From Gammaproteobacteria bacterium (GTDB lineage: Bacteria; Pseudomonadota; Gammaproteobacteria; GCA-001735895), in the NCBI GenBank assembly GCA_022340305.1, contig JAJDOF010000022.1, positions 1 to 52,403 of the forward strand: a stretch of DNA of 52,403 bases. Reading direction: 5' to 3'. Below the pieces are notes generated by a model. The model saw nothing but the letters and a program-made list of their open reading frames with translations. It was not told the DNA's origin and ran no database searches. The position numbers and the translations under genes are program-made. Shown here piece by piece: positions 47,652 to 51,223 of the stretch (its first letter is position 1; every line of letters starts with the position of its first letter).

Positions 47652-48038
47652 TTATATCGGTGAATCTTTGTCGGCTTGGGGATTTAATACAAAGGCATTT
47701 TGACCCATCTGGTGGTAGGTTGCACCAAACCCCTTGAGAATCTCTTTCGAAGCATCGTCTGGGTTCCCCCAGCACTGACAGGTAATCTTGTCGCAAGCGT
47801 CTATGACTGCCCCCAGCGGCTGCTTACCTTTCTCGTTATCGAGATGCGCGACGAAGGCTTTATCGTTGGCGTAAATCTCAACCCATTGGCTCATCGAGTC
47901 GGACGGATAGTCAACGTGATAACAGATTACACCGGGATGATCATCTAGCATCACCTGGCAAAGCTTTTCCTGGTTGGCTTTAAAATCAGCTTCTCTACCG
48001 CTTTTTATATCCCATTGGATTTTCAACATAAATGGCAT
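47652..48038 (-). CDS. Antibiotic biosynthesis monooxygenase (ABM)-fold protein
   Basis: A 128-residue protein with the ferredoxin-like ABM fold: beta strand MLKIQWDIKSGREADFKANQEKL, the mid segment HPGVICYHVDYPSD, and QWVEIYANDKAFVAHLDNEKGK, in which the last part is the usual helix after the third strand. The C-terminal extension (about 85-128) has three Cys residues in DACDKITCQC. Such proteins oxidise quinol-like substrates or act as small oxygenases without a cofactor. The start at 48038 has AAGGAGA 6 nt upstream; the frame extends to 48074 without support. Role in this locus unknown. Confidence 0.8.
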   Translation of the reverse strand: MPFMLKIQWDIKSGREADFKANQEKLCQVMLDDHPGVICYHVDYPSDSMSQWVEIYANDKAFVAHLDNEKGKQPLGAVIDACDKITCQCWGNPDDASKEILKGFGATYHQMGQNAFVLNPQADKDSPI

Positions 48039-48326
48039 GGTATTTCTCCTTTGCAGAGCCTGAATCTGGAACATCGAAGGGTAACAGGAAATTTACTTTA
48101 TCAATCACTTATGTGTTTATTCCCTATATGAATCGGGCGGTACATTTCTAGCTGATCTGTGCCTGAATATCAGGCCCGGCAGAAATCCCGTTGCCGGTAG
48201 AGCCGGTATACGAACTGTGAACAATGGCAGGCCTGACATTCCCGGATTGACACTGAAATGCGGAGCCTGACGGTGTATCCCCTGTGCGGTCGATATTCGA
48301 ATGTTTTGCGATACCGGGCCGGGGTG

Positions 48327-50747
48327 TCACAGCGTAGTCATCTGTAGATGGTGGTATGGCGGTCTATCCCGGTAACGACGAATCGCCAGGCGCAGGATTT
48401 CCTCCAGAAAATCACCGTAGTCCAGTCCATCCAGTGCAGCTACTGTGGGGACGCAATCCGTCGGTCCGATCGACGGATTCGGATTCACTTCCAGCACAAA
48501 GGGATTGCCTTTCGCATCAATCCGAACCTCGGCACGACCGTAATCGCTGCAGCCAACAACGTTATAGGCATCCAGCGCGATCTCCGATATCAATGAAGTC
48601 AATTTTGCCGGGACTCCTTTGGGGGGGCGCTGAACTTCGATTCCTTTCTTATGAATTGTGCTGCCCAGGAATTTTGCCTCGTAGGGGTACATATGCCAAT
48701 AGCCATCCGGCAAGTCTTTGAATATCGATCGTGACAAGGGCAGGATTCTCTGGGAGTCATCCCAGTTCCCCATTATCGAAACATCGTACTCATCTTCGGA
48801 GATGAATTCTTCAATCAACACGGGACGCTTGAGTTCTGTTAAAACGTAATCAATGCGATCCTTCAACTCGCCGTGGTTCTCCACGACCGAATCATTGGTG
48901 ATGCCGATTGAACTATCGGAATTTGCCGGTTTTACAATGGCTGGAAGTGGAAAATCACGATCGTAGTCGTCGCTCACGCTATACATATAGTCCCATCGTG
49001 GCGTCGGAATATGATGAAAGCTGAGCAATTTCTTCACCCGGATTTTATCCAGGCACAGGCCGAGGGTGAACGGGTTGGATCCGGTATAGGGAACTCTCAG
49101 GATGTCATAAAGCGAGGCCGCATGGGGCTCCAGCAGGCTGGACTGGTTAATGCGCTCGCACAGGTTAAAGACGATATCGATCCTGGCATCCGTTATTTTT
49201 TTTACCGCTTCGAACGGGTGATTGAAATCCAGGAATGTAGTTTTGTAACCCCGTTGCTCAAGCGTCGCGGCGATCGTCTGCGCATCCGAGGTCAGCTCTG
49301 CTTCGATCGGGTCGTCACTATCCGCGAATCCGTTACTGGCGATGCCCACATGAAGCCTGTTCTGGTTTTCATATTCGATGGATCGAATCATCTCGATTCG
49401 AGCAGCGCCGATAACCGCATCTTTCGCCATCCGCGCCGAGGACAACGAGTTCTTTCTTTTGGTCTTGCCGAGTGAAGATCCACGAGTGAACTTGGCGATT
49501 TCAATCGTTACGCTGCCCATCGCGCGCTCAACTCGCTCTTCCGCCTCGCCCATGGTATCTGCCATCGCATACACCCATCCCAGGTACTCATAGCCCAGCG
49601 GTGGCGCCAGAACGGGGTCGCCAATATCCTTGAACAACTCGATCTCACCATGGGGCACCGATTTCGGCACGGATAACGAGGTCAGCAAGCCGGAATGTGC
49701 GGGCAGGAAATACTTGCCCGATAAATATTTTTTCGGCCTTTCCGGTTTCTGGATGGGTCGAATGTACTGGCCTGTTGCAATGAGGGCAGCGCTTTCAACC
49801 AGGTCAACGCCCCATGCCTCCTTGACGAAATAGTAGACCTCGTCCCCCCCCATGCGCAGATTGATCTCGATTGGCATGGCGCCACGCGCCCCGTACTTGG
49901 CCTCAAAATGAATGCAGCCGTGGCCAACCCCGAGACGCTCCAGAATCTCCTCGGCCAGATCGACCAGTTCTGCCTGTTGGGAGGGCGATAAACGGGTTGG
50001 AATACATTGCCCCGTTTCAACGAAGAATGGCTCTCGCGTCGCATCGTTGTCACTCATCGACCAGAATTTGATCTTGCCGTTTTGCAACAGGATATCGATA
50101 TCGACCTCGTTGCCGTCGATATATTCTTCCGCCATGATGGTCGTACCGGCGGCCAGTGCGGACTCCACTTCGGAAGTCATGTTTTCACGAATGTACTCAA
50201 CCGTCTCGCGGAGTTGCTGATCGTCTTCCACTCTCACGACGAAGGCGCTACTGGCGCCGTAAACAGGTTTGACGACAAGGGGATAGCGCAATTGTGACAC
50301 GTAATGTTGCGCAGGCTTATCCGTATCGATAAGGGCATAGCCGGGAGCTGGCAGGTTGTTGTCTTTACAGAATGAGCGGAACAGGAATTTATCCCGGGCA
50401 AGCCGGGCGATATCGTAGGGTATACCCTTCAAGCCGAGGAAATCACTGATTCTGGAAGTCAGCAGAACATCGTCTTCCCAGAAGGTCATGACCCCGTCAG
50501 GATCGAGATCCGGGTTTACCAGGATAAAGTCGGCTATCGCCTGTAATGCTGCCGCGTGGTCGTTGGTATCGGCGAAAATCCAGTGTGAGGCATAGGCCCT
50601 GGCCCAGTTTTCGGCTACATTGAGAATAATCAGCGTGCAGCCAAGTTCCTTCAGTCGTTTCAGGGTAAAGCGCTTTTTTCGATTTCCCGTGTTAACGATT
50701 AGCAGCTTTTTGCCCTTGAGGTCATTGCCCCTGGTTTTGTTGGTCAT
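48327..50747 (-). CDS. Double ATP-grasp ligase (amino-acid-ligase-like plus Ddl-like)
   Basis: An 806-residue fusion of two ATP-grasp enzymes. Module 1 (about 1-430) resembles the carbamoyl-phosphate-synthase/carnosine-synthase group: KKLLIVNTGNRKKRF near the start, PLVVKPVYGASSAF, EEYIDGNEVDIDILL, and the metal-binding CIHFEAKYG (Glu282) and PIEINLRMGGDEVYYF (Glu294, Asn296). Module 2 (about 465-800) resembles D-Ala-D-Ala ligase: IVFNLCE, VPYTGSNPFTLGLCLDK, AIVKPANSDSSIGITN, and the metal site FVLEVNPNPSIGPTD. Both modules keep their ATP and metal residues. Each should join a carboxylate to an amine using ATP. The start at 50747 overlaps the acetyltransferase stop (ATGA) and has AGGA 6 nt upstream; a start at 50771 is less likely. 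The product is unknown; a small peptide or amide is inferred. Confidence 0.85.
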   Translation of the reverse strand: MTNKTRGNDLKGKKLLIVNTGNRKKRFTLKRLKELGCTLIILNVAENWARAYASHWIFADTNDHAAALQAIADFILVNPDLDPDGVMTFWEDDVLLTSRISDFLGLKGIPYDIARLARDKFLFRSFCKDNNLPAPGYALIDTDKPAQHYVSQLRYPLVVKPVYGASSAFVVRVEDDQQLRETVEYIRENMTSEVESALAAGTTIMAEEYIDGNEVDIDILLQNGKIKFWSMSDNDATREPFFVETGQCIPTRLSPSQQAELVDLAEEILERLGVGHGCIHFEAKYGARGAMPIEINLRMGGDEVYYFVKEAWGVDLVESAALIATGQYIRPIQKPERPKKYLSGKYFLPAHSGLLTSLSVPKSVPHGEIELFKDIGDPVLAPPLGYEYLGWVYAMADTMGEAEERVERAMGSVTIEIAKFTRGSSLGKTKRKNSLSSARMAKDAVIGAARIEMIRSIEYENQNRLHVGIASNGFADSDDPIEAELTSDAQTIAATLEQRGYKTTFLDFNHPFEAVKKITDARIDIVFNLCERINQSSLLEPHAASLYDILRVPYTGSNPFTLGLCLDKIRVKKLLSFHHIPTPRWDYMYSVSDDYDRDFPLPAIVKPANSDSSIGITNDSVVENHGELKDRIDYVLTELKRPVLIEEFISEDEYDVSIMGNWDDSQRILPLSRSIFKDLPDGYWHMYPYEAKFLGSTIHKKGIEVQRPPKGVPAKLTSLISEIALDAYNVVGCSDYGRAEVRIDAKGNPFVLEVNPNPSIGPTDCVPTVAALDGLDYGDFLEEILRLAIRRYRDRPPYHHLQMTTL

Positions 50748-51223
50748 TTTGATCCTGAAGTTGCTAAACAAAATTCGGGGCGTACCGGCTTGCGAAAAAA
50801 CACCGTGCGTTCGGATTCCGCAAAACCCAGAGCCTTATGCGCCGCGATACTGTCAGCGTCATATTCGAATACATCCGAGGCAAATTCCCGGCAACCGTGC
50901 TTCGCTCCCCAGCGTTCAACTTCCAGGCACAGGGAACTGGCATATCCTCGCTGACGAAATTCCGGCCGCACATAAATTCCTTCCAGAAAGGTTACCCGGC
51001 CCGGACGACAGCCGTTGACGGGCTCGGTGCGCACAGACGCTTCGGCAAATCCTACCGCGCGGGAACGCTTGTCCAGGGCAATGAACCCCTGGAACATGAA
51101 CAGGGCAGCAGAAAAGTCGCGCAGGAACTCGGCATGTTCCTTTTTGCCAAGTTCGGGGATGAATTCCCGACGCAGCGCTATCCAGTCATTGTCCCTGATG
51201 TCAGTTGCTACTCGTACCGGCAT
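50744..51223 (-). CDS. GNAT acetyltransferase, AAC(6')-I-like
   Basis: A 159-residue GNAT N-acetyltransferase. Its layout matches aminoglycoside 6'-N-acetyltransferases: DNDWIALRREFIPELGKKEH near the start, FIALDKRSRAVGFAEASVR, VTFLEGIYVRPEFRQRG, where RPEFRQRGYA is the acetyl-CoA pyrophosphate loop, then GCREFASDVFEYDADSIAAH and the terminal ALGFAESERTVFFRKPV. Many such genes act on metabolites, not drugs. Its stop codon overlaps the ATP-grasp gene start (ATGA), so the two are translationally coupled. That makes acetylation of the ligase product or substrate the most economical guess. It starts the unit, preceded by about 1 kb of gene-poor DNA. Confidence 0.88.
   Translation of the reverse strand: MPVRVATDIRDNDWIALRREFIPELGKKEHAEFLRDFSAALFMFQGFIALDKRSRAVGFAEASVRTEPVNGCRPGRVTFLEGIYVRPEFRQRGYASSLCLEVERWGAKHGCREFASDVFEYDADSIAAHKALGFAESERTVFFRKPVRPEFCLATSGSK

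Follow-up and report, generated by a model that had tools for sequence, protein, structure and literature searches.

What might a cell make with a single protein that carries two different ligases and is encoded directly behind an acetyltransferase? The question is raised by a two-gene unit in contig JAJDOF010000022.1 of a gammaproteobacterial genome assembly (GCA_022340305.1), here called the window and analysed over its full 52,403 nucleotides. The downstream gene encodes a fusion of two ATP-grasp modules (P0001, consisting of an N-module and a C-module), and the upstream gene encodes a GNAT N-acetyltransferase (P0002) resembling the AAC(6') enzymes. The answer that we favour, with moderate confidence, is that P0001 is a bifunctional peptide ligase independent of non-ribosomal peptide synthetases, linked in some Patescibacteria to a MurL-like protein and joined in Proteobacteria by a GNAT that probably acetylates its product or a building block. 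Family evidence supports the predicted ligase reaction of the fusion well, and the conserved core of the system, as read from sequence, is the double ligase, joined with putative epimerisation in some lineages.

Both modules are complete and differ from one another, as an earlier note on this DNA had proposed. Pfam places ATP-grasp_4 at residues 154-301 of the fusion (E 3.7e-28, 98.6 bits against a cut-off of 27), together with LAL_C2, and Dala_Dala_lig_C at residues 595-785 (E 1.7e-36), in keeping with the D-Ala-D-Ala-ligase-like second module of that note. The nearest solved relative of the N-module in phmmer searches is the L-amino acid ligase (LAL) BL00235 (3vot, E 9.8e-28), and the C-module is nearest by sequence to D-alanine--D-alanine ligases (Ddl; 3r23, 1iow). 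Carnosine synthase, named earlier together with amino-acid ligases as what the N-module resembles, finds no support as its nearest relative, being absent from match lists that are led by BL00235, RizA and BacD (the libraries may lack an entry for it). An AlphaFold2 model of the fusion has a mean predicted local distance difference test score (pLDDT) of 84.2 and a predicted template modelling score (pTM) of 0.55, so that the relative placement of the two modules is unsure; in Foldseek searches the N-module matches 3vot_A (TMt 0.87), RizA (0.74) and BacD (0.69), and the C-module matches the Ddl structures 3r5x and 3r23 (TMt 0.86-0.87). Neither protein of the unit has a Pfam match to the condensation, adenylation or carrier domains of non-ribosomal peptide synthetases. 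The two-module architecture is held across family members from 76% down to 38% identity.

Residues were counted over 25 aligned fusion proteins (alignment A3, also the basis of the tree described below); alignment, counts and tree all omit L036 (split into two open reading frames, ORFs), L037 (truncated where its contig ends) and L074 (which has the N-module alone), and rows L077 and L081 (partial) and L078 and L079 (wrong ORFs) were not used. K120, K160, S167, E214, E282, E294 and R298 of the N-module are invariant (25/25), and N296 is kept in 21/25; K120, K160, E282, E294 and R298 are presumably the ATP/Mg-binding residues and the conserved Arg. The N-module combines the ATP-grasp and LAL C-terminal domains, the ATP/Mg residues and the conserved Arg by which L-amino acid ligases are recognised. 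The C-module keeps K568, K606 and E653 in 23 of the 25 proteins each, E646 in all of them, E753 in 22, N755 in 21 and R738 in 19, and all seven of these ATP/metal residues are intact in 4/4 proteobacterial members. The EINLRMGG and EVNPNPSIG motifs, picked out earlier for their metal-binding residues, are present, and alignment shows that neither module of the window protein has lost its ATP-binding residues. Two amide bonds, as first suggested, may fairly be expected of two complete modules with their ATP/metal residues kept.

Two modules could nevertheless perform one ligation: the N-module might act alone, with the C-module as a regulatory or substrate-binding remnant, or both might make one bond, since the two ATP-grasp modules of carbamoyl phosphate synthetase can act on one product. 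The C-modules of L067, L072 and L073 (3/25, all from Patescibacteria) fit a remnant, having lost several key residues while the N-module is intact, and suggest that not every member needs both ligases to be active; single C-module changes occur elsewhere (N755 to D in both L063 copies, R738 to K in L069-L071). However, the C-module residues are intact in every proteobacterial member, the two modules are nearest to different ligase families, and the model as a whole does not superpose on CarB (root-mean-square deviation about 24-26 A, a weak test at the pTM obtained). A single ligation seems quite improbable, and two ligations by one protein remain the reading pursued here.

The second ligase is predicted to differ from Ddl in what it accepts. 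In an alignment of the C-module with E. coli DdlB the ATP/metal side is kept and the acceptor side differs: in what we take to be the Ddl numbering, Ser281, Leu282, Tyr216 and Asp257 correspond to D764, C765, F693 and E740. The C-module has the ATP-grasp fold and ATP/Mg residues of Ddl but neither its acceptor-site residues nor its scores, which lie below the curated cut-offs of PRK01372 (188.6 against 243) and TIGR01205 (155.7 against 245.65; range 121-189 bits). Because the acceptor-side residues differ while the ATP/metal side is kept, the module should act like Ddl but probably without D-Ala as the acceptor. The fusion is not the housekeeping Ddl of its host, since two true Ddl genes, separate from it, score over the family cut-off in the window's genome.

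A scan of 84,980 species genomes with P0001, which used exact patterns and one query and would miss more distant members, gave 10 loci, three in proteobacterial metagenome-assembled genomes (MAGs) and seven in Patescibacteria MAGs (L031-L037); eight of them match nearly the whole query (L036 as two ORFs), whereas L029 starts and L037 ends inside the gene. The proteobacterial fusions are 76% (L028, Chromatiales), 75% (L029, Lysobacterales) and 72% (L030, Gammaproteobacteria) identical to P0001 in alignment A2, and the best segments of L031-L037 are 44-52% identical. A family profile matched 16 of 379 sampled Patescibacteria genomes, one of which (G787) is the source of L031, and the pattern scan and profile search combined give 22 Patescibacteria genomes with 23 loci. 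Most of the relatives found thus belong to the ultra-small Patescibacteria. A one-off fusion or an annotation artefact is ruled out by the 10 loci and the 16 profile-matched genomes. Around the host the fusion is rare: in overlapping samples of 143, 369 and 398 genomes (E<=1e-30, only the top candidates per genome being scored) the full-length protein occurs only in the window's genome, the other listed matches being to one module. An origin from phages or plasmids is unsupported, the 13 pattern matches in viral contigs including no relative, and the matches in 13 phage and 65 plasmid records including none with at least 80% of the query in one place.

In a maximum-likelihood tree of the 25 fusions the four proteobacterial proteins form one clade (support 100/100) within the Patescibacteria diversity, adjoined by L035 and L061 from Patescibacteria (97/98). 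Transfer of the fusion from Patescibacteria to Proteobacteria is likely on this topology, but it is not proved, because the tree is midpoint-rooted and 7/22 inner branches are open. The G+C contents of the fusion gene (52.5%) and the GNAT gene (55.2%) are near that of the window (56.1%), which speaks against a very recent arrival.

P0002 matches Acetyltransf_1 (Pfam, E 5e-16), and its likeness to AAC(6') enzymes, remarked on before, is borne out by its nearest solved structure, AAC(6')-Iy (1s3z, E 7e-28), and by AAC_6p_group_E, against which it scores 122.1 bits and the GNAT of L030 scores 137.3, both under the cut-off of 140. A P0002-like GNAT lies directly upstream of the fusion, on the same strand, in L028 (50% identical) and L030 (48%), and thus in 3/3 readable proteobacterial loci with the window included; the L029 contig starts inside the fusion, so that its upstream side is unreadable, and no P0002-like match was found elsewhere in that genome. 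The flanks outside the GNAT-fusion pair differ among these loci, which makes the pair the common unit. The co-occurrence of the two genes, which the earlier note proposed to survey, holds at the readable proteobacterial loci and fails in Patescibacteria, where a P0002-like GNAT is absent from 7/7 genomes tested (E<=1e-5). The proposed coupling through an ATGA overlap is more local still: in the window the ATG start of the fusion gene (50747-50745, minus strand; stop at 48327) overlaps the TGA stop of the GNAT gene (50746-50744), but this is particular to the window among the three readable proteobacterial loci, 19 bases intervening between GNAT stop and ligase start in L028 and L030. The AAC(6')-like GNAT is predicted to be a proteobacterial addition to the conserved double-ligase core.

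The GNAT could instead be an unrelated mobile aminoglycoside acetyltransferase that lies upstream by chance, leaving the ligase to work alone. At 48% identity, P0002 is no closer to the GNAT of L030 than to an AAC(6') from an environmental Azospirillum, and the Patescibacteria genomes tested have the fusion without it; yet the gene holds the same strand and position in all three readable loci despite their differing outer flanks, and the GNATs of these loci group as one clade (89/97, recovered in 92% of bootstrap trees; nine rows compared). Neither the GNAT (E<=1e-15) nor the fusion (E<=1e-30) was found in the 20 same-genus genomes listed, so the two were probably gained together, and chance proximity seems unlikely. 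Weaker P0002 matches occur in two other genomes of the 143 around the host (2.8e-19 and 1.1e-17). A second alternative gives the GNAT a protective role: the fusion would make a peptide harmful to its producer, and the AAC(6')-like enzyme would disarm it by N-acetylation, as the tabtoxin resistance acetyltransferase protects its own producer. The named members of the nearest AAC(6') group acetylate antibiotics, and ATP-grasp ligases make bioactive peptides, two of them serving the phosphonoalamide pathway (PMC11867202). We doubt self-protection, however, as no gene for tailoring a toxin could be recognised within the unit, no exporter lies among its two genes, and the tight coupling of the GNAT is equally consistent with biosynthesis; its putative role, as retained here, is to acetylate either the product or a building block.

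The features of the unit are collected in Table 1. Promoter and terminator scans around it gave site counts no higher than in shuffles, and there is no tRNA in the window. On the 3' side of the unit is an ORF of 140 amino acids (window 47652-48074, minus strand), by eye of the antibiotic-biosynthesis-monooxygenase type, with no Pfam match at E<=1e-5.

Table 1. Coordinates of the two-gene unit and its parts within the window
Feature	Position	Strand	Basis
GNAT N-acetyltransferase, AAC(6')-group-E-like, 159 aa (P0002)	50744..51223	-	Acetyltransf_1, AAC_6p_group_E and 1s3z matches
Bimodular ATP-grasp ligase, 806 aa (P0001)	48327..50747	-	Pfam, phmmer; AlphaFold2 model
N-module, residues 1-420, L-amino-acid-ligase-like ATP-grasp	49488..50747	-	phmmer and Foldseek
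LAL_C2 domain, residues 347-417	49497..49709	-	Pfam PF18603, 29.9 bits against a cut-off of 29.4
EINLRMGG, N-module metal/phosphate motif, residues 294-301	49845..49868	-	Residue conservation in 25 members
Linker joining N- and C-module, residues 421-464	49356..49487	-	pLDDT <50 at residues 422-440
C-module, residues 465-795, D-Ala-D-Ala-ligase-like ATP-grasp	48363..49355	-	Dala_Dala_lig_C; 3r23/1iow; Foldseek
EVNPNPSIG, C-module metal motif, residues 753-761	48465..48491	-	Residue conservation in 25 members
ATGA stop/start overlap of GNAT and ligase genes	50744..50747	-	Sequence reading

In Patescibacteria the commonest partner of the fusion is not a GNAT, as a general pairing would have it, but a MurL-like gene (451-464 amino acids) present at 8/23 loci (L031, L032, L033, L034, L063, L064, L066 and L067). 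It adjoins the fusion, except in L067, where it is two genes away, and overlaps it by 4 bases in L031, L032 and L034 and by 11 in L064 according to our own ORF calls. The eight proteins, 24-44% identical to the first of the set, carry an [ST]FGK[DE]S loop as well as a WCxxCxxC motif. Pfam matches none of the four members scanned, and a profile of these four finds no solved relative; with 4/8 partners scanned, the NCBIfam MurL family is matched remotely by L032 (E 6e-10), L033 (1.4e-7) and L031 (2.7e-4) and not by L034. The best of five structural models has a pLDDT of 83.3 (the other four, 62-67), and Foldseek places QueC first (E 2.6e-3) with TilS, MnmA and TtuA in the top ten, none at E<=0.001; we take these four to be N-type ATP pyrophosphatases. 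The MurL-like gene is found in 5/16 fusion genomes against 2/363 others at E<=1e-100 (one-sided Fisher p 1.4e-6), in 5/16 against 5/363 at 1e-50 (p 1.5e-5) and in 7/16 against 23/363 at 1e-10 (p 6.7e-5), p-values that ignore relatedness and come from a profile of which one of the four sequences belongs to a genome in the sample. Of the two genomes that reach E<=1e-100 without having the fusion, G935 encodes behind its MurL-like gene a pair of unjoined Ddl-like ATP-grasp genes (L107:5998-9488), an arrangement that is a putative unfused counterpart of the double ligase. Elsewhere in the proteobacterial hosts no MurL-like gene was found in G000, G785 and G786, and G784 has one weak match (E 2.2e-5). 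MurL itself depends on ATP and Mg2+ and gives off AMP while inverting a terminal Glu, probably via an adenylate (PMC5808125, PMC8788868). The remote match and QueC-nearest model of the Patescibacteria partner are in line with this use of ATP; unlike MurL as described there, the partner sits beside ATP-grasp ligases (no MurD2 neighbour was searched for), and its function is a prediction.

Other genes around the Patescibacteria fusions, which vary from locus to locus and are mostly named by similarity or left unnamed with selected proteins scanned, include a second epimerase-like kind unrelated to the MurL-like one, namely L-Ala-D/L-Glu-epimerase-like genes in L033 and L067 (NCBIfam, 201 and 169 bits, under the cut-off of 500). 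A third ATP-grasp gene is present in L033, L062 and L069 (by similarity also in L070 and L071), and ornithine/diaminopimelate-decarboxylase-like genes in L033, L062 and L069 (by similarity also in L032, L070 and L071). A KamA-family radical S-adenosylmethionine (SAM) protein lies between the two fusion copies of L063 (235 bits against a cut-off of 199.2), methyltransferases occur in L032, L067 and, by similarity, L068, and L068 has a major facilitator superfamily transporter. PF13480 acetyltransferases are found at 7/23 Patescibacteria loci (by Pfam in L031 and L069, by BLAST in the others), those of L066 and L069-L071 facing the other way from the fusion, and L064 and L065 have GNATs that are likewise encoded on the opposite strand. 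Neighbours of such kinds were unrecognised in L035, L036, L037, L059, L060, L061 and L074, where most neighbours are unscanned. By similarity these neighbourhoods look more like a modified-peptide pathway than like the making of a compatible solute or storage compound, for which, though proposed at the outset, no evidence was found.

Since MurL is a peptidoglycan enzyme (PMC5808125, PMC8788868) and the C-module is Ddl-like, the fusion might be thought to serve the cell wall, making a short peptide or a modified D-Ala-D-Ala-type dipeptide while its MurL-like neighbours make D-Glu as in Xanthomonas. The L-Ala-D/L-Glu-epimerase-like genes would suit such a role, as would the lack of a Ddl over the cut-off in 3/7 Patescibacteria genomes tested (G788, G792 and G793), but the other four (G787, G789, G790 and G791) have a true Ddl over it. 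Replacement of the Ddl acceptor residues Ser281, Leu282 and Tyr216 by Asp, Cys and Phe, the poor fit of the KamA-like aminomutase, decarboxylase and methyltransferase neighbours, and the restriction of the family to a small part of the Patescibacteria sampled also speak against a cell-wall role, which we consider very improbable.

Some arrangements at these loci stand apart. In L063:5989-13885 the two fusion copies are clustered with MurL-like, KamA-family radical SAM aminomutase-like and SET-domain genes, and SET-domain genes lie beside or near the fusion at L031:10479-11225, L066:4194-4607 and L063:13340-13885. Similar proteins of about 365 residues occur in both epimerase-bearing clusters (L033:13344-14453 and L067:7461-8543), with no NCBIfam family and a marginal Pfam match at most (Aminotran_5, below its cut-off, in L067). 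In L072 and L073, where C-module residues are lost, a PF13480-type acetyltransferase (by similarity) directly follows the fusion. Ddl-like sequences turned up in other settings as well: proteins of about 640-690 residues in same-class genomes (L006:1474-3420, L008:1447-3375, L015:505-2451, L017:1450-3459 and L018:628-2688) have a SAM-methyltransferase-like first half, by eye, and a Ddl-like second half with EVNPNPGWCWDGK or near it. Stand-alone Ddl-like proteins that by eye are of the same type as this second half are encoded in the host's own genome (contig C78, L113:4382-5395) and, just upstream of the MurL-like and fusion genes, at L032:1358-2389; the two are 41.5% identical. The host's contig C109 (L112:2114-3481) encodes an ATP-grasp_4 ligase about 5 kb from one true ddl, with a look-alike by eye in L014.

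Several observations weigh against the explanation favoured here, among them the C-module losses and the single C-module changes, the closeness of P0002 to the Azospirillum enzyme (about that to its counterparts in L028 and L030) and the relatedness ignored in the Fisher tests. The GNAT link is based on three loci, the backbone of the fusion tree is poorly resolved, and the named loci all come from MAGs. The MurL matches score 38.2, 30.3 and 19.5 bits, far under the cut-off of 700, and the fold match to QueC is weak and comes from the single confident model of five. A nearby MurL-like gene is lacking at 15/23 Patescibacteria loci, including L035 and L061, the closest relatives of the proteobacterial clade (L037 is unreadable downstream), and MurL-like genes also occur apart from ligases: G992, the second genome that reaches E<=1e-100 without having the fusion, has two with no related ATP-grasp gene in the 14.7 kb inspected, and the weaker ones of G884, G939 and G947 (1e-72 to 1e-74) are likewise without such an ATP-grasp gene in the stretch inspected.

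If P0001 is a double ligase, each ATP-grasp module would use ATP and Mg2+ to form an acyl phosphate, which an amine would then attack. The N-module would act first, joining two amino acids, most likely into a dipeptide or an aminoacyl amide, and the Ddl-like C-module, with its altered acceptor pocket, would form a second amide bond in series, adding a third unit or an amide. Where a Patescibacteria locus also encodes a MurL-like or dipeptide-epimerase-like partner, that protein would then invert the residue at the C-terminus of the peptide. One lineage of the fusion would have passed to Proteobacteria and then been joined by the AAC(6')-like GNAT, whose most likely target is the amino end of either the finished product or a building block. 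A fuller version is possible but doubtful as a whole: an undescribed Patescibacteria pathway making two bonds and a C-terminal D-residue, with beta- or methylated residues in some lineages, a single transfer, and N-capping by the AAC(6')-like enzyme in Proteobacteria. If true, it would supply a natural substrate for one branch of AAC(6') and a peptide-making role for bacteria better known for reduced genomes.

Parts of this system have known counterparts. The N-module is like BL00235 (3vot), RizA (4wd3) and BacD (3vmm) in fold, in sequence match and in its LAL_C2 domain, at 16-24% identity in Foldseek alignments, but their solved chains are single-module proteins of 413-474 residues, whereas here a second ligase is fused. 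The C-module is like Ddl (3r5x, 1iow) in fold and ATP/metal residues and unlike it in its acceptor-side residues and its scores. Synthesis of N-acetylglutaminylglutamine amide joins a GNAT and one ATP-grasp module in a single polypeptide and so shares the idea of the present unit, in which the GNAT is separate and the ligase doubled. In phosphonoalamide biosynthesis, too, there are two ATP-grasp ligases, PnaC making dipeptides and PnaB the tripeptide; these are two separate genes with an identified product, and the accessible part of that paper names no GNAT or MurL-like partner (PMC11867202). An engineered cascade of TabS, a dipeptide epimerase and N-acylation follows the same logic of ligation, C-terminal epimerisation and N-acylation and works, although it is man-made from unrelated genes and its acyl step is performed by an acyl-CoA synthetase (PMC13338154). 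Predictions also exist of operons in which an oxygenase-cupin gene is accompanied by one or two ATP-grasp peptide ligases, with peptide-derived metabolites as the proposed products; the partners described are oxygenase-cupin and Rieske proteins, and the passages at hand mention no double ligase in one chain that has a GNAT or a MurL-like gene beside it (PMC2922099).

Peptide ligases of the ATP-grasp type are thus already known, while a two-module fusion with MurL-like partners and a GNAT-linked offshoot was not found described among the papers listed. A description of the double-ATP-grasp ligase was likewise not found among these open-licence papers, a weak guide in that most subscription journals and preprints lie outside the collection, and in the same partial collection neither a characterised product of the fusion family nor a peptide product of Patescibacteria turned up. 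A review by Iyer and co-workers of amidoligases with ATP-grasp folds reportedly may describe related gene neighbourhoods.

The free-peptide ATP-grasp ligases matched here have one module each; joined in a conserved form with two modules, such enzymes would give a compact peptide synthase with a mass of about 90 kDa, as estimated from its length, that may be of use in one-pot tripeptide synthesis. In Proteobacteria the unit would place an AAC(6')-like enzyme in a biosynthetic setting, making the natural substrate of a 'cryptic' AAC(6') testable in one case. The spread of the fusion among Patescibacteria, accompanied at some loci by epimerase-like genes, suggests that these small-genome organisms have a peptide pathway.

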